A stretch of DNA of 54,999 nt. It comes from Flavobacteriales bacterium. GTDB lineage: Bacteria > Bacteroidota > Bacteroidia > UBA10329. This document shows, one piece after another, positions 18,265 through 25,224 of the stretch. Position 1 is the stretch's first letter. The number at the start of each line of letters is the position of its first letter. The position numbers and the translations under genes are program-made. Location of the stretch: contig WGMW01000042.1 in assembly GCA_016124845.1 (NCBI GenBank), positions 1 through 54,999 of the forward strand. The letters run 5' to 3'. The notes under the pieces are model-generated. The model had not been told where the DNA came from, searched no databases, and worked only from the letters and a program-made list of their open reading frames with translations.

Positions 18265-18293
18265 CAGCGGATAATTGGACTTTAGTCATTTTC

Positions 18294-18429
18294 AAACGGA
18301 ATTATAAAGTTGATGGGTTCGATCTGAGATTCCTCACTGCGTTCGGAAAAGCAGCCAAACTTTGTTCTTGTTTTCCTGACGAAGGAAGGAACTCAACGCT
18401 TTTGTACCGTTTACTTTATAATTCCGTTT
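18294..18429. repeat. Dispersed repeat element with 17-bp inverted ends
   Basis: The ends AAACGGAATTATAAAGT (18294-18310) and its exact complement (18413-18429) bracket a 136-bp element. Inside are GAGATTCCTCACTGCGTTCG and TTCCTGACGAAGGAAGGAAC, both relatives of the common Bacteroidota hairpin repeat that reads GAGGAATCTC in one direction. No reading frame is present. It looks like a small non-autonomous or REP-like element. Confidence 0.65.
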
Positions 18430-18499
18430 TCAAATTAACCCCAACACAACAACTAAAAGGGTTGCATTCGAATTATTTGGTACGAAAAGATGTTTGCAA

Positions 18500-18949
18500 T
18501 CAGTTCTTCTGGAGCGCAAACTGCACAGTGGTTTCACACCAAACCCCACACGCTTCATAGAGATAATAATCAATTGAGTCGGATCCGAATTGGAGAGAAA
18601 GTTCACGGTATCCACTACCACTGCCCGATTGAGAAGAATAGGCACCTGAAACAGGCAGTTTCAGATCAAAATACGATGATGTTAAAGTGTCATTGTATGA
18701 AACGAATACGTTCAACGAAGAGTCAACACTACTTTTTAGCACATTCACTGTGACATGTTTAGTTTGAGACCAGGTCTGAATCGAATCTCCGTTATGGGCT
18801 CTTTTGAAGTGATGCGATATGCCATCGTAGTCACCGGTCCATTTTTCCAAGTAGTATGGATCTTGTTCCGGAATATCGATGTTTTCGTTCTTTTTGCAAG
18901 ATGCAAGAAAGAATATGACACCCAACAGATAAAGAGGTAGTATTTTCAT
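18500..18949 (-). CDS. Hypothetical lipoprotein
   Basis: The product has 149 residues from the ATG at 18949, chosen because it gives a clean lipoprotein signal with lipobox FLASC. A second in-frame ATG 27 nt upstream would spoil it. The mature part is beta-rich and resembles small Bacteroidota lipoproteins that follow a KKNE linker. No family recognised. It is the first of five minus-strand genes for exported proteins in the AT-richer patch 18.5-22.6 kb. Confidence 0.7.
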   Translation of the reverse strand: MKILPLYLLGVIFFLASCKKNENIDIPEQDPYYLEKWTGDYDGISHHFKRAHNGDSIQTWSQTKHVTVNVLKSSVDSSLNVFVSYNDTLTSSYFDLKLPVSGAYSSQSGSGSGYRELSLQFGSDSIDYYLYEACGVWCETTVQFALQKN

Positions 18950-18997
18950 TTTCAATGTACCTAAAAGCAGTACCAAATTAACAACCTTCTGACAAAA

Positions 18998-19033
18998 CTA
19001 TCACAAGCATTTGGGTTAGCGGGTGTTGGCGGT
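18998..19033. repeat. Half copy of the spacer A/H palindrome (E)
   Basis: Read on the minus strand this begins CGCCAACACCCGCTAA and continues to AATGCTTGTGATAG. It closely matches the left arm of spacer A (111-147) and the outer arm of spacer H. The complementary second arm is missing, so it looks like a truncated inter-cassette site. It follows the stop of the gene at 19047 after 13 nt. Confidence 0.5.
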
Positions 19034-19046
19034 TGGTGCTTTTCAT

Positions 19047-19634
19047 TTAATTCCAAACGTCACTCGGATTGATCAAACCTGTAACCAAAATTTGATTGAT
19101 TGCCCTGAAAAGGCCTTCCAACCCCCTTTCCCGCGTCTCGTAGTCAGGCGACCAAATGTCATAGTAAATGTAGTCGTCACCAATTTTTACTTGGAGATTA
19201 CCACTTGTGCCGTAAAGACCTGATTCCGCCAATTCCACTTTCAAATGGTCGTGGTCCAGTTGCAAAAGAAGATTTTCTATTACCCCAAATTCTGATTCGG
19301 GTATTGAAAAGATAGTGTCAAACCTGTTTTCGTTTTGCTTGTAGGCAACCTTAGCTTTTACTGAATCTTCCTTGGTCAATGCTGTCTCATAGGCTCGGAA
19401 TAATTCGGCTGTTGCCGTCATTAGATCATCCATACTTGACCTGTCCGTTTCTACATGGACTTGGCAACTGTCGGACTTGAATTCAATTGTCACAGTTATT
19501 GACCTGTAGTTGGGTTCCAACTTCATGTTATCGTAGAAGGAATACTTCACCATTTCCACGCTATTTTGTCCAACGGTGTCATGTAGAAACAAGCAACCGC
19601 AGATTATAAGAAGTAAGTGTTTCAGACAGTTCAT
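19047..19634 (-). CDS. Hypothetical exported protein
   Basis: The product has about 195 residues from the ATG at 19634; in-frame ATGs at 19643 and 19652 are possible, but the last lies inside repeat F. A signal peptide covers about residues 1-22 and ends near VGQ. The mature part alternates beta strands and a helix (about 60-85), with many aspartates and glutamates. No family recognised. It sits between half-site E and repeat F, like a cassette in the minus direction. Confidence 0.65.
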   Translation of the reverse strand: MNCLKHLLLIICGCLFLHDTVGQNSVEMVKYSFYDNMKLEPNYRSITVTIEFKSDSCQVHVETDRSSMDDLMTATAELFRAYETALTKEDSVKAKVAYKQNENRFDTIFSIPESEFGVIENLLLQLDHDHLKVELAESGLYGTSGNLQVKIGDDYIYYDIWSPDYETRERGLEGLFRAINQILVTGLINPSDVWN

Positions 19635-19644
19635 TTTCAGCATA

Positions 19645-19777
19645 ACCGCCAACGGGTACTACTATGAAAATAGGGCTTTAACTCCTCCGACCTTTCGCCC
19701 AAGACCGAACTTGGTAGAAACCACTTAGGCTTGCGTACCTGTCGTCACGCCCTATTTTGATAGCAGATGTTGGCGGT
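19645..19777. repeat. Long palindromic direct repeat, copy F
   Basis: A 133-bp unit with outer ends ACCGCCAAC/GTTGGCGGT and inner arms CTATGAAAATAGGGC/GCCCTATTTTGATAG. A 60-bp internal stretch (19662-19721) is identical to 21254-21313 in copy G. It lies 6 nt after the stop of the NHL gene. This is the pattern expected of near-identical attC sites in a cassette array. Confidence 0.7.
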
Positions 19778-19783
19778 AGTTTT

Positions 19784-21142
19784 TTATTCTTTCACCACTT
19801 TTAGATTAGCGACTTTTCCGTCCGTGTAAAGCAGTTGAATCAAATAAACGCCTTTGGGATTCGGCATGATATATTCGATAAGTCCAGCGGCATTCCGTGA
19901 TTCCGTTTGAACCAACTCTCCCAAAACGTTGTACACATTTATGGTTATCGCCTCATTGATAGTACCTAAGTCAATTTGAATCCTGTCCGAAGTAGGGTTG
20001 GGGTAGAGATTGATTAAGTCCTTAGTGCTAATGCTGGTGGTAAGACCATCTGGATAATAGTTGACGGTTCTCACCCTATAATTTGCGTTATCCGAAATGA
20101 AAAGGTTGCCCATCTCACTGACTGCAACCGCATATGGATAATTCAGTTGAGCATTCAGTGGAGATTGTCCATCACCGCTAAACCCTCCAACTCCGTTTCC
20201 GGCCACGGTTGAGAGCAACCCAGACTCAGACACTTTTCGAACTCGGTGATTGTAACCTTCGGTAAAAAAAAGCTGGTCGTTGTGCCAAAGAATGCCAAGG
20301 GGGTGGTTAATCTGGGAATTCTCTGCCAAAATATTTTCCCCATTGTATCCTTGCACTCCACTTCCTGCGACCGTATAAATAAGCCCTAGTGTATCAATTT
20401 TCCGAATTCGCGAGCCAAATGTTTCTGTGATGTATATATTACCGTATGAATCAGCGGTAACATCATTTGGGAAGTGTAATGTGGCGGTTGTAGCTGGTAT
20501 GCTGTCCCCATTATATCCAAACTGCTCAATGCCTGCTATTGTCGTTATGATACCAGACTGATTTATCTTTCGAACGCGGTTATCGTTCCCTTGTGTGACA
20601 TAAATATTTCCCGATTCGTCCAAAGCAACGCCATCGGGTTTTCCAACACTGGCTGCACTCGCGAAGCCACCGTCACCGCTAACACCGGTCTGTCCATTGC
20701 CAGCAACAGTAGTGATAATACCGTTAGAATCAACTTTCCTTATTCGATTGTTCTCATAATCGGAAAAGAAAAGATTCCCATTTGAATCAAATGCAAGGTA
20801 ATGTGGAGTGGAAATTTCAGCCTCATTTGCGGGTCCGTCATCTCCTGAAAACCCTGAGTACCCAACCCCCACAACGGTACTTATTATTCCATTCCCATCA
20901 ATTTTACGGATAACGCTGTTTCCATCACAGACGTACAAATCACCAAATGGACCAAAGGCAACTCCGCCAACTCGATTGAACGAAGCTGAAACAGCATATC
21001 CCCCATCACCATCATATCCTGCTATTCCGAGCCCAGCATAAGTTTCTATTGTCTGAGCCAGACCCGTCAATGAATTCACAAGCACCAAAATCAATAATAG
21101 CGAGAATCTCGCATCGGGATTGACTATGAAAATTCGTGTCAT
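19784..21142 (-). CDS. Secreted NHL-repeat protein with T9SS sorting domain
   Basis: The product has 452 residues. A signal peptide (about 1-30, ending GLAQ) is followed by six NHL-type propeller blades of about 56 residues. Each shows a GYNGDG or GFSGDG turn, then GVA, G-[ND]-[LI]-[YF]-[VI], RIRK and ITTVAG. From about residue 375 a type IX secretion sorting domain begins with LYPNPTSDRIQI and ends with a short basic strand (VANLKVVKE). The protein should cross the outer membrane through T9SS and be anchored or released. It is flanked by near-identical palindromic repeats F and G, so a whole T9SS substrate may be a mobile cassette. Confidence 0.88.
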   Translation of the reverse strand: MTRIFIVNPDARFSLLLILVLVNSLTGLAQTIETYAGLGIAGYDGDGGYAVSASFNRVGGVAFGPFGDLYVCDGNSVIRKIDGNGIISTVVGVGYSGFSGDDGPANEAEISTPHYLAFDSNGNLFFSDYENNRIRKVDSNGIITTVAGNGQTGVSGDGGFASAASVGKPDGVALDESGNIYVTQGNDNRVRKINQSGIITTIAGIEQFGYNGDSIPATTATLHFPNDVTADSYGNIYITETFGSRIRKIDTLGLIYTVAGSGVQGYNGENILAENSQINHPLGILWHNDQLFFTEGYNHRVRKVSESGLLSTVAGNGVGGFSGDGQSPLNAQLNYPYAVAVSEMGNLFISDNANYRVRTVNYYPDGLTTSISTKDLINLYPNPTSDRIQIDLGTINEAITINVYNVLGELVQTESRNAAGLIEYIMPNPKGVYLIQLLYTDGKVANLKVVKE

Positions 21143-21236
21143 TGAATTAGGGTTAAGAAGATATCATTTTCGTTTCACGTTTAGAGGTTGCTTAGTTTTC
21201 AACTTCGAGCCGCGTTTTCAGATGGCTGCAAAAATT

Positions 21237-21370
21237 ACCGCCAACGTTAACTGCTATGAAAATAGGGCTTTAACTCCTCCGACCTTTCGCCCAAGACCGA
21301 ACTTGGTAGAAACAACTGAGGCTTGCGTGCATGTTGCCAAGCCCTATTTTGATCATAGATTTTGTAGGTA
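21237..21370. repeat. Long palindromic direct repeat, copy G
   Basis: Second copy of the F unit, in the same orientation. The left end ACCGCCAAC and the CTATGAAAATAGGGC arm are intact, and 60 bp are identical to F. The right end is worn (TTTGTAGGTAG instead of GTTGGCGGTAG). It begins 4 nt after the stop of the gene at 21375. Confidence 0.7.
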
Positions 21371-21374
21371 GTTT

Positions 21375-21893
21375 TTATTGCCAACTAAACCGTTGCGGCA
21401 ATAGGGACCACCAATCACCTCTTGTCCAACTTTCGCGAGACTTGACGTCACGAGGAATGAAATGCACCTCTCTTCGGGTAACTTGAAACTTTTCGTCCCA
21501 ATGAATTGAAACGTTGACCATAAATCGCCTGAACATATCGTTCCCCAGGTAAAAAATGTCCCGAAATGCAACCATTGTTGTGAAATTGACCGGTGTTGTG
21601 CCGCCAAACGTCACGTGTGTATCAATTCGTGCAGAATGTTGCTTAAACTGTTCAGAGGCTAAAGCTTCGTTGATATACTGCAGGTTAGAACTATCCGCGT
21701 TCAAAGTGTCGACCAGATACATTTCAAGAGTCGGTCCAACCTTTCCACTTATCAATTCTTTGTGAACTTGATAAGCTTCAAGTTTATGTTTTAAATAAGT
21801 TGAACTGAACTTATACTCTTTTAAAATTCTGTCCACTTGAGACATTCCGAATAGGGGAATGATGAGAAATAGTATGCTGATAGAGTGCTTCAT
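21375..21893 (-). CDS. Hypothetical exported protein
   Basis: The product has 172 residues. The signal peptide (about 1-18) ends GMSQ. The mature protein has an N-terminal helix, then a beta-rich part with VTFGGTTPVNFTT and a tryptophan-rich C-terminus (SWTRGDWWSLLPQRFSW). No family recognised. Its ATG lies 22 nt before spacer I and its stop 4 nt from repeat G, so it is a complete single-gene unit of the cassette-like array. Confidence 0.68.
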   Translation of the reverse strand: MKHSISILFLIIPLFGMSQVDRILKEYKFSSTYLKHKLEAYQVHKELISGKVGPTLEMYLVDTLNADSSNLQYINEALASEQFKQHSARIDTHVTFGGTTPVNFTTMVAFRDIFYLGNDMFRRFMVNVSIHWDEKFQVTRREVHFIPRDVKSRESWTRGDWWSLLPQRFSWQ

Positions 21894-21914
21894 GCGTTAT
21901 TTTTCAATTAATCC

Positions 21915-21978
21915 CAACGGTTTGGCTAACAAACGTGTCCTGAAGGTCATGTTTTGTTAGACTTTGTTGCGCACCGTT
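21915..21978. repeat. Palindromic inter-cassette spacer I
   Basis: CAACGG (21915-21920) pairs with CCGTT (21974-21978), and CTAACAAACGTG pairs imperfectly with CATGTTTTGTTAG. On the minus strand the unit begins right after the stop of the gene at 21982 and ends 22 nt before the ATG of the next gene. Size is 64 bp. Confidence 0.55.
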
Positions 21979-21981
21979 TTT

Positions 21982-22554
21982 TTAATCATCATTAGTTTCT
22001 TCGTAGTAGTCTGAAATTTCAATGTAATACATGACGTCAAGTATTCGATTCTTTATCAATCCGTAAAGCTTTGCAGCGTCATGAATCATGATTTCCCTAC
22101 CTTGTCCGTATTTCGAGTAGTTAGCATAGCCGACAAAAGCGTGATATACAAATTCCTTTTCGTTGTCGTAAAACTCTTGCCATGAAGCTTGACTTTTTTT
22201 GAGATTAAGATCATCAACTTTTCCAAGGTTCTTGTAAAGTGAGTCGATGAGGATATTCAGCTCATTCTCAGCATATTCTCGTGCTAACACATAACAGCAT
22301 GGCATGCCGTAATTTGTTTCGTTCTCAGGATGCGAAAAGTACGATATAAGAACTGAGTCGGCTTTGATTAATCTGTCACAGGAATCGGTCAAGAAATAGC
22401 TGTAGTATGCTTCTTGCCAATTGTCAGGTCCAAACTCTAAGTGTTCAACTAGGTTTGAATCTGTCCAATTTTTCAATACACATTGTCCTCAGACTGTGAT
22501 TGACCATAATTGAATGGACAACACGAGAAACAATATGTTGATTCTGATTTTCAT
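21982..22554 (-). pseudogene. LprI-like exported protein gene broken by in-frame UGA
   Basis: From ATG at 22554 the frame reads a signal peptide (MKIRINILFLVLSIQLWSI), then TGA at 22491-22489. In the same frame it continues GQCVLKNW and 164 more residues to the stop at 21982. The downstream part, usable alone only from a TTG at 22476, would lack the signal peptide. Residues such as AENELNILIDSLYKNL and KKSQASWQEFYDNEKEF resemble the LprI/DUF1311 domain of exported lysozyme inhibitors, with moderate confidence. Either a recent nonsense mutation, a sequencing error, or readthrough explains the stop. It lies between spacers I and H. Confidence 0.65.
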
Positions 22555-22567
22555 TTTAAATAGTGCC

Positions 22568-22796
22568 CAACGGGTACCGCTAAAGATAATGCGTTAGCAA
22601 CTGCTGTCCTGCAAAAGACCTACGAGGTTTGGGACATGGGTCAATTGGAGTGCGCGGTTGGGCCTCCCCACGGTCCTCGATACGTCCGCTTGTGGCGGAC
22701 ACTCGGACTGACCCACGCATGGACAGCACAGAACATGTAGAGACGCGATGCATCGCGTCTCTACCCTACCGTCACAAGCATTGGTTAGCGTTTGGC
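22568..22796. repeat. Palindromic inter-cassette spacer H
   Basis: The left arm (22568-22597) is the exact inverted copy of 30 bp in spacer A. The right arm ends GTCACAAGCATTGGTTAGCG, complementary to the left arm at CGCTAA and AATGC. Inside are GGACATGGGTC/GACCCACGCATGGAC pieces and the perfect palindrome at 22737-22764. It closes the right accessory patch. The 315-bp gap 22555-22869 holds nothing else. Confidence 0.6.
22737..22764. repeat. Perfect 28-bp palindrome (REP-like)
   Basis: GTAGAGACGCGATG is followed directly by its exact complement. Similar GAGACGC...GCGTCTC palindromes are widespread repetitive extragenic elements. It is nested inside spacer H, so it probably inserted there. 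Confidence 0.7.
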
Positions 22797-22908
22797 CGGA
22801 ACCTGAGAATTTAGATCCGTTCACATTCATGGTAACATCCGCGCAAAAAGTGCGTTCTAAGGCACAGGCATGCCTTTTGCCAAGGCTTTGCCCCAACCCA
22901 AAGGACCA

Positions 22909-25224
22909 ATGGCCTTTTTGAAGAAAGTATGGAACAGTTCGTTCGTTCAGCGGACGCTGTATTTCTTTCCGCTGCGGCTATTGGTACTTCACCTCAAAAA
23001 GAACCACGTTCTCATTTTCTTCTGGTTGGCCCTTGGGGCGTTTGCCTCTGGGGCTGTGGGCCAAGGTTATGGAGTGCCTTATCTGTTCTGGGACCCTGAA
23101 TACATGGGCCGTGTGGATTTCTGGTCGTTCATGATCCTCGGCTTCTCGTTCGGTGGTTTTCTGATGGCATTCCATATCTCAAGCTACATTCAGAATGCGT
23201 TTCGGTTTCCGTTTCTGGCCACGGTAAGCAAACCGTTCTTCAAGTACTCGCTCAACAATTCCATCATTCCAGGGATCTTTCTGGCGTTGTACCTCTATCA
23301 TATTCTGAATTTCCAGTATCAGAATGAGCTTTTCCGATTGGGCAACGACCTGGAAGTGACCAATGTGCTGCTTTGGGACCTGGCCGGTTTCATTTCGGGT
23401 GTGCTGCTCTTCATGATTCCCGGCCACACCTACTTTTTGGCATTGAGCCGCAACATCTTCAAGGTTTTCGGCATCAACCCGGACGACATCAAGAAATCCC
23501 GCAAGGGCAACAAACCCATACAGGTGCTGCTCCAGAAGAACCTGCAATGGCGCACGGTAAACGCTCCGCGCGAGAACGACTACGAATGGAAGGTGGTCAC
23601 TTACATGATCAACTGGTTCAAGATTGGATTGACGCGCGACTCGGACCACTACGACCCTAAAATGGTGCAGAAGGTATTTCAGCAGAACCACATGATAGCG
23701 GCCGTTTTTGAGATAGCGGTCATAGTCTCATTCATCATTCTGGGTGCGTACCGCGAAATTCCTGAACTGACGCTTCCTGCGGGTGCCGTCATTTTTCTGG
23801 TGTGCACCATGATGTTGATGATCTCCAGCGCGATCCATTCTGCCACCAGAGGATGGTCTACCGTGTTCCTGATCGCCATGGTCATCACGGTGCATTTCCT
23901 TGTTCAGAATGACATTCTCCTCTATGAGAACCGTGCTTACGGAATGGATTACGATGGCCCGAAGGCGGTCTATCAGCTCGATTCGCTGGAAAACGCACAA
24001 CAGAACTTCGCGACTTACGAGAAGGATCTGAGTTTTCATTATGAGATCCTGAACAAGTGGAAACTCAAGAACATCGACCGCAGGTGGGAAAAGCCTAAAA
24101 TGGTGATCGTCTGCGTAACGGGCGGGGGTGCCCGATCGGCACTTTGGAGCTACAAGGCCATGCAGGTGGCAGACAGCCTCACCGATGGCAAGTTGATGAA
24201 GCACACACAGGTGATGTGCGGTGCTTCGGGCGGCATGTTCGGATTGGCGTACAGACGCGAACTGTATCTGCGCTCTTTGGGAAATGACAGCATTGACCTG
24301 AACGATCCCGAATATGTGGACCGCATCGGGTTCGACATTCTGAACCCGATAGCCACCTCGTTGGCGCTGAACGACTGGTTCATCCATTTTGAGAAATTCC
24401 GTGATGGCACGTACATCTATTCCAAGGACCGAGGTTATGCGCTGGAGAAACAGTTCAACGACAACACATTGGGAATCGTTGATAAGCGATTGGGAGATTA
24501 TGCCGCGCCAGAGCGTGATGCGCTGATTCCGATGATGTTCTTTTCTCCGAGCATCATCAACGATGGTCGTTCGCTGTACATCAGTTCGCAACCCATTGCT
24601 CACCTCACATTCAATCATCCAAGCATTTTGAACGGGCAGGCGTTACAATCTGCCGTTGAATTCAGAAGACTGTTCAAAGACCAGGATGCAGACAACACGT
24701 GGTTCACAAGTGTGCTGCGCATGAACGCCACATTCCCATACATCTCACCTCAGGTCACATTGCCAAGTAAACCCGCTATTGAAGTGATGGACGCAGGCTT
24801 CCGCGATACGTACGGTGTTTCCATTGCGCTGAAGCATTTGTACGCCATTCGTAAATGGGTGGAGAAGAACACCAGCGGTGTGGTCATTCTTCAGATACGC
24901 GACAGTCCGAAGATCGAGCCGATCCATGGCAATCCGCCACGTTCTTTGTTCAGTATGATCACCAATCCGCTGGGACACATCTACGATAACCTGTTTGTGA
25001 TGCAGGATTACATCAACGATGATCTGACCGTCTATGCCCACAACTGGTTGCATTCTGACCTTGAGGTCATTGACCTGGAGTTGACCCGCCCTGAACTGGA
25101 GGACATTTCCCTGAGCTGGCACCTGACCACGAAGGAAAAGGACATTATCCGCAAATCGGCCTACACGAAAAAGAACCAGGCCGCGATGATGCGGTTGAAG
25201 GAGCTTTTGGAAGAGATCCGTTAA
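22909..25224 (+). CDS. Membrane-anchored patatin-like phospholipase
   Basis: The product has 771 residues from the ATG at 22909, which has AAAGGA 6 nt upstream; an in-frame ATG at 22870 would add 13 residues. The N-terminal half (to about residue 345) has about eight membrane helices. The C-terminal half is a patatin-type hydrolase: oxyanion loop TGGGAR, nucleophile elbow GASGG (GxSxG), and the aspartate of the dyad in MDAGF (DxG). Patatins cleave acyl groups from membrane lipids with a Ser-Asp dyad, so a role in lipid turnover at the inner membrane is likely. Patatin domains behind a large multi-helix module are unusual. Function of the membrane part is unknown. Confidence 0.78.
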   Translation: MAFLKKVWNSSFVQRTLYFFPLRLLVLHLKKNHVLIFFWLALGAFASGAVGQGYGVPYLFWDPEYMGRVDFWSFMILGFSFGGFLMAFHISSYIQNAFRFPFLATVSKPFFKYSLNNSIIPGIFLALYLYHILNFQYQNELFRLGNDLEVTNVLLWDLAGFISGVLLFMIPGHTYFLALSRNIFKVFGINPDDIKKSRKGNKPIQVLLQKNLQWRTVNAPRENDYEWKVVTYMINWFKIGLTRDSDHYDPKMVQKVFQQNHMIAAVFEIAVIVSFIILGAYREIPELTLPAGAVIFLVCTMMLMISSAIHSATRGWSTVFLIAMVITVHFLVQNDILLYENRAYGMDYDGPKAVYQLDSLENAQQNFATYEKDLSFHYEILNKWKLKNIDRRWEKPKMVIVCVTGGGARSALWSYKAMQVADSLTDGKLMKHTQVMCGASGGMFGLAYRRELYLRSLGNDSIDLNDPEYVDRIGFDILNPIATSLALNDWFIHFEKFRDGTYIYSKDRGYALEKQFNDNTLGIVDKRLGDYAAPERDALIPMMFFSPSIINDGRSLYISSQPIAHLTFNHPSILNGQALQSAVEFRRLFKDQDADNTWFTSVLRMNATFPYISPQVTLPSKPAIEVMDAGFRDTYGVSIALKHLYAIRKWVEKNTSGVVILQIRDSPKIEPIHGNPPRSLFSMITNPLGHIYDNLFVMQDYINDDLTVYAHNWLHSDLEVIDLELTRPELEDISLSWHLTTKEKDIIRKSAYTKKNQAAMMRLKELLEEIR

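Follow-up and report, generated by a model that had tools for sequence, protein, structure and literature searches.

A partly decayed gene-cassette array without an integrase in a Flavobacteriales genome, very probably of a Bacteroidota integron lineage with a patchless integrase

The DNA analysed here, called the window, is a stretch of 54,999 nucleotides that makes up contig C42 of the draft genome of a Flavobacteriales bacterium (4.36 Mb, 65 contigs, 98.9% complete), and its minus strand carries, from position 22,792 down to 18,288, five co-oriented genes (18500-22556) that alternate with hairpin sites resembling the attC sites of integrons. An earlier note, made from the letters alone, had described five successive minus-strand genes, four of them followed by a palindromic spacer, as a cassette-like array, and the succession of genes with hairpin sites as 3' neighbours is confirmed. 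All elements named below lie on the minus strand and are numbered along the gene direction, namely S0, c1, S1, c2, S2, c3, S3, c4, S4, c5 and the array end.

The array starts at S0 (22571..22792), an attC-like site whose right box, G|TTGGGCACTAT, is the opening of cassette c1; the note had taken this spacer (with its box GTTGGGC) for the closing site, which in the gene direction has to be reversed. A palindrome, GTAGAGACGCGATGCATCGCGTCTCTAC (window 22737-22764), is inserted in the hairpin loop of S0 and resembles a dispersed repeat of the repetitive extragenic palindromic (REP) type. The first gene, c1 (21982..22556), is LprI-like (PF07007, E 9.7e-05) and is probably a pseudogene, because the signal peptide in its reading frame is followed by an in-frame TGA (MKIRINILFLVLSIQLWSITV*). 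It is separated from c2 by S1 (21918..21968), a short attC-like site with left box ACGGTGCGCAAC and right box G|TTGGGATTAAT. The second gene, c2 (21375..21893), encodes an exported protein that was not assigned to a family (reading frames, N-terminus and family search), and is followed by S2 (21245..21363; 158.8 bits), with right box G|TTGGCGGTAAT and a mutated left box (CAAA for CAAC). The domain matches of c3 (19784..21142) indicate a beta-propeller (NHL) protein with a sorting domain of the type IX secretion system, and behind it lies S3 (19653..19771; 170.3 bits; left box ACTACCGCCAAC, right box G|TTGGCGGTTAT). By N-terminus and family search, c4 (19047..19634) encodes another exported protein without family assignment; its site S4 (18985..19034, end approximate; left box AACCGCCAAC) has lost its right half. 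The last gene, c5 (18500..18949), encodes a lipoprotein, also without family assignment, with the N-terminus MKILPLYLLGVIFFLASCKK.

The array end (18288..18460) is weakly defined by a cassette-start-like GTTGGGGTTAATTTG and an inverted repeat of another type with 23-nt arms; the hairpin at 18288-18435, which had been counted as a spacer of the same type, differs in kind from the attC-like sites of the array. The short site S1 between the first two genes is an addition to the description in the note, and the last-but-one site, near 19027, is the one that lacks its right half. For the four genes other than c1, an exported product is consistent with the N-terminus (one lipoprotein and three signal-peptide-like starts). 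None of the window genes is recognisable as an immunity gene, no recombinase adjoins the array, and c1-c5 had no relative in the fetched loci beyond a common sorting domain. No Rfam family reached the gathering threshold at this locus, and no tRNA was found. The two spacers described as near-identical, S2 and S3, are indeed 87% identical over 143 nt, and further copies of this kind of site occur in the same genome on contigs C64, C29, C27 (two) and C49; three of these contigs stop no more than about 1 kb away from it, as expected if repeated sites break the assembly.

The left box (R'') of a site in an integron pairs with the start of the cassette to which the site belongs; within the array, that start lies behind the previous site. 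The pairing test compared the seven bases beyond GTT/AAC in the left box of site n+1 with those in the right box of site n. At the four junctions of the window, it gave 5, 3, 7 and 7 matches of 7, the best of the 24 permutations: the left box of S1 matches the c1 start at 5/7, that of S2 is unmatched to the c2 start, and those of S3 and S4 match the starts of c3 and c4 at 7/7 each.

The same pairing can be seen across the genus. A covariance model (R1), built from seven site copies of the window's genome, found sites in 7/9 congeneric genomes, including 49 matches in genome G004, where genes and sites on contigs C23, C16 and C43 alternate 1:1 in one orientation and the contigs end inside sites. 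For 27 adjacent pairs from the congeneric genomes the mean was 5.78/7 matches, with 17 pairs perfect, while shuffled pairs had a mean of 3.20/7 and a maximum of 4.33, and 0/20,000 shuffles reached the observed value. Stem covariation in an alignment of 64 sites points in the same direction (changes on both sides at 27/34 pairs, values that 0/500 shuffles reach and that sliding the stem partners destroys), although it is supporting evidence only, because the alignment was fitted to the structure model.

These numbers bear on the simplest competing explanation, that the spacers are dispersed palindromic repeats (REP-like, or like miniature inverted-repeat transposable elements) or terminators that stand between genes by chance. 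The spacers are strong hairpins, and two of them are near-identical and have further genomic copies, as such repeats would. However, a palindrome would show the reverse of the observed pairing pattern: the left and right boxes of the same site agree at 3.14/7, which is the chance level, while the pairing with the start of the own cassette is nearly perfect, so that the sites are cassette ends rather than simple palindromic repeats. In addition, the sites follow genes 1:1 in one orientation and, as described below, lie behind an integrase. We consider the dispersed-repeat explanation most improbable, and the attC-like sites and genes of the window are integron cassettes. The earlier note had argued from core boxes that resemble attC loosely; pairing with the own cassette's start is stronger evidence than such similarity, and it supports the gene-cassette array that the note proposed. 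The note had also named two observations that would speak against it. Dispersal of the spacers without a link to gene ends was not found, as the sites in G004 are tied to gene ends, and conservation of the array in relatives was not found either: the flanking gene at 22870-25224 has orthologues in 7/8 congeneric genomes, and none of them showed the array at this locus, although several contigs end nearby. The comparison of the flanks in congeners gave no clean empty site, with the array sitting at a synteny break.

The note had seen no integrase in the window, and none was found in the rest of the draft genome, which contains XerC, XerD and some phage-type recombinases. It seems very unlikely that these are canonical integron cassettes moved in trans by an ordinary patch-bearing IntI, the patch being the insertion regarded as the mark of integron integrases. 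Their anatomy is equal to that of attC, with R''/R' boxes pairing over 9-11 nt, an unpaired central spacer and an asymmetric stem, and a pairing of 9-11 nt is also that of most known attC cassettes (PMC2727003). On the other side, nothing above the cut-off of TIGR02249 was found in the window's genome, its genus or 59 relatives. As an integrase marker, TIGR02249 was itself rejected, since it matches Xer-type proteins in every control genome, none of them over the cut-off. Moreover, arrays in many genomes begin at a patchless recombinase, and at the G|TT junction it is the 3' end of this recombinase that is conserved.

This recombinase is best seen in G004. There, contig C45 encodes a tyrosine recombinase of 426 residues whose stop codon overlaps the start of the first cassette (CCCCTAG|TTGTGGTTAAT), and the ends of C45 (integrase), C9 (site) and C16 have that first cassette in common and diverge exactly at G|TT. 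On contig C33, a second integrase 3' end is followed by another first cassette, with 152/161 identical positions before the junction and 18/58 after it. Two copies of an integrase 3' end in genome G245 show the same break (161/161 before the G|TT junction, 20/58 after), as do the integrase 3' ends of G328 and G263 (150/161 and 19/58). These junctions are those expected of an attI site with different first cassettes. The three contig ends of G004 also give two predecessors to one cassette start, which would mean that the cassette is present twice or that the assembled population was mixed. Decayed copies of the integrase were observed in congeners (G004 C38 and C19; G006 C62 and C27). Such copies suggest repeated loss, and an integrase was presumably lost from the window's genome as well.

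The catalytic residues R, K, H-R, H and Y are present in the Bacteroidota integrase, but by the spacing of these residues the IntI patch (about 42 residues) is missing. The catalytic K is 63-66 residues away from the H of HxLRH in nearly all members (69 in one, two unmeasurable), compared to 105-106 in most patch-bearing IntI from the same search and 71-72 in XerC/D, and the TIGR02249 score is below the cut-off. In a maximum-likelihood tree, obtained by a quick search without bootstrap, IntI form their own clade with a Shimodaira-Hasegawa-like approximate likelihood ratio (SH-aLRT) of 100, which does not include the Bacteroidota proteins; most of the rows of the latter fall in two clades of 53 and 18 rows (SH-aLRT 95 and 91). 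Therefore, by two criteria, the patch and the clade, the integrase does not belong to the IntI family. Its closest family by hidden Markov model (HMM) is XerA (NF040815, 209-233 bits, cut-off 220). The AlphaFold2 model of the integrase (predicted local distance difference test, pLDDT, 83) has as best Foldseek match IntI4 bound to attC (2a3v), while by VIA Z-score the XerA-type 4a8e is the best (24.0) and 2a3v the second.

The first 70-80 residues are predicted to form a separate N-terminal domain (pLDDT 92.6 when modelled alone). Pfam gives HARP in 1/24 members (E 6.6e-4) and DUF5710 in 6/24, and comparison with 4o66 (SMARCAL1 HARP) is weak (profile E 0.077; Foldseek E 0.055, probability 0.80). 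The VIA comparison yields Z < 7 for all rows; the eIF1 and XPB folds, which it also proposed, were rejected as too weak for an assignment. The signals are weak but concordant, and we regard a HARP-like, forked-DNA-binding domain as a lead.

Relatives of the G004-type recombinase (E <= 1e-50) occur in 174/395 sampled Bacteroidia genomes. Under a strict rule, which demands an exact 10-nt cognate pair starting no more than 260 nt after the integrase stop codon, followed by a site, cassettes were found at 16/37 and 11/29 integrase loci (27/66 together), compared to 2/77 and 0/137 control gene ends taken from the same DNA (2/214; p 1e-7 and 7e-10). Arrays that are evident on inspection or under a looser rule escape the strict one, and 13 further contigs end less than 300 nt from the integrase stop. 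Cassettes begin 0-250 nt past the recombinase stop codon, whereas patch-bearing IntI have none downstream (0/17 loci). Rufibacter sp. SYSU D00344 has a series of 13 cassettes in a row, its sites being about 60 nt long; Winogradskyella ursingii and Seonamhaeicola aphaedonensis have five cassettes each, Flavobacterium aciduliphilum three, and Algoriphagus ornithinivorans and Zunongwangia mangrovi two each. The recombinases of loci L044 and L045 had been set aside as ordinary ones, a judgement reversed by the array behind L045 (G058). Related recombinases in Marinilabiliaceae and their relatives (L224, L236, L239) have 675-718 residues and are far longer than the others. No phage record with the patchless integrase was found. 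These arrays behind a patchless recombinase in relatives support the suggestion of the earlier note that the recombination site is specific to Bacteroidota.

In gut Bacteroidales, recombinase-associated acquired interbacterial defence (rAID) arrays consist of a tyrosine recombinase and short genes that all point the same way, with conserved motifs in the intergenic stretches (PMC12247911), and it could be proposed by this analogy that the arrays are operons for defence or secreted proteins, in which the repeats between the genes have no role except in expression or homologous recombination. Many cassettes do encode exported or immunity-like proteins. Against this, the cassettes that follow the junctions are unrelated, the sequences parting exactly at G|TT, and locus L185 carries an exact tandem duplication of a 945-bp cassette from boundary to boundary; homologous recombination between repeats would not break at G|TT, and we find this explanation extremely unlikely. 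Cassette genes that are 83-89% identical were also seen in different families (L240/L166, L245/L161).

The rAID arrays are instead probably part of the same Bacteroidota lineage. They have a relative of the patchless recombinase followed by short genes of one orientation with conserved motifs between them, and in a rAID-like array on a plasmid of Bacteroides ovatus BFG-107 (L284:8953-17428) the cognate end pairing is 8.5/11, compared to 7.1 in shuffled pairs (0/2000). The rAID cassettes are rich in immunity genes and open with (C)ATTA in place of GTT(A/G), the core in L284 being ATTA instead of GTTA. A rAID-like array of immunity genes was also seen on a Parabacteroides distasonis plasmid (L288). 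The original description of rAID is reportedly that of Ross et al. 2019 (Nature), and part of the comparison of rAID with integrons may already be in print.

Outside Bacteroidota, on the plasmid p80-1-2-tetX3 of Acinetobacter indicus (L283:5052-7073), the gene immediately ahead of tet(X3) encodes a truncated relative of the patchless integrase; between the two genes, 171 nt past the stop of the truncated integrase, lies a cassette-start-like GTTATGTGCCAT. No matching R'' was found after tet(X3) on this plasmid, so that its status as a cassette is unsupported and we treat it as a lead only.

Taken with the IntI integrons (mobile, sedentary chromosomal, and clusters of attC sites lacking integrases, CALINs), the arrays share one gene and one hairpin site per cassette, a variable hairpin loop, ...AAC/GTT... 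end boxes that pair within the cassette, G|TT exchange and an attI beside the integrase gene. They differ in the Bacteroidota integrase, which has no patch, falls outside the IntI clade and carries an additional N-terminal domain, and in the position of the array, which follows the 3' end of the integrase gene and points the same way. XerA-type recombinases (NF040815, 4a8e), the closest family by HMM and VIA Z-score, resolve chromosome dimers at dif, and the known members have neither the N-terminal domain nor cassette arrays. The passages of Smyshlyaev et al. 2021 on an integron-like subgroup of tyrosine recombinases call the integron insertion 'not fully conserved' there, and those passages assign no cassette arrays or attI sites to patchless members (PMC8138268).

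With high confidence, although short of certainty, we conclude that the window holds a partly decayed cassette array without an integrase (a CALIN), which belongs to a Bacteroidota integron lineage with a patchless integrase; the in-frame stop of c1, the CAAA at the left end of S2 and the lost right half of S4 are the marks of decay. Several observations weigh against this reading. No candidate integron integrase was found in the window's own genome. One of the four window junctions is without pairing and one window site, S4, is truncated, for which reasons the array itself may be dead. Furthermore, about one third to one half of the integrase loci of relatives have no cassette start by the criteria used, and some of these recombinases may serve another role.

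By its anatomy, each cassette has the form TT-(variable stretch of about 9 nt)-gene-(the same stretch in complement)-AAC-site-G. To hypothesize on the mechanism, the two complementary cassette ends would meet in the excised circle, and one strand would fold into the attC hairpin. In relatives, the tyrosine recombinase is encoded directly upstream of the array; it would link the hairpin to an attI that lies at the 3' end of the recombinase gene or up to about 250 nt past it. Strands would be exchanged at G|TT, and new cassettes would thus enter beside the integrase and be read in the same direction as the integrase. The N-terminal HARP-like domain may aid the recognition of folded or forked DNA. 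The wider proposal has, in our estimate, about even chances: a second lineage of integrons, common throughout Bacteroidia, whose patchless XerA-like recombinase performs attC hairpin recombination with an N-terminal HARP-like forked-DNA module replacing the patch, and of which the rAID arrays and the Acinetobacter tet(X3) behind its truncated integrase are products.

Integron recombination is held to require the IntI patch, which also serves as the feature by which integron integrases are recognised. Most of this large Bacteroidota family appears to have escaped the standard tools, because its integrase is without that insertion and has an extra domain at its front. Surveys list hardly any complete integrons in Bacteroidetes: according to IntegronFinder 2.0, only integrases lacking attC sites (In0) had been seen there at first, and then one complete integron, in Salinibacter ruber (PMC9024848). 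We found no description of patchless Bacteroidota integrons in the open-licence literature apart from rAID, which does not prove that there is none. If the reading is true, cassette arrays behind a patchless integrase in Flavobacteriales, Cytophagales, Sphingobacteriales and Bacteroidales would change the known range of integrons, and the patchless integrase would be a natural test of the purpose of the patch. It would also provide a mechanism by which gut Bacteroides assemble immunity-gene arrays, and would suggest a route to mobility for Bacteroidota genes such as tet(X).

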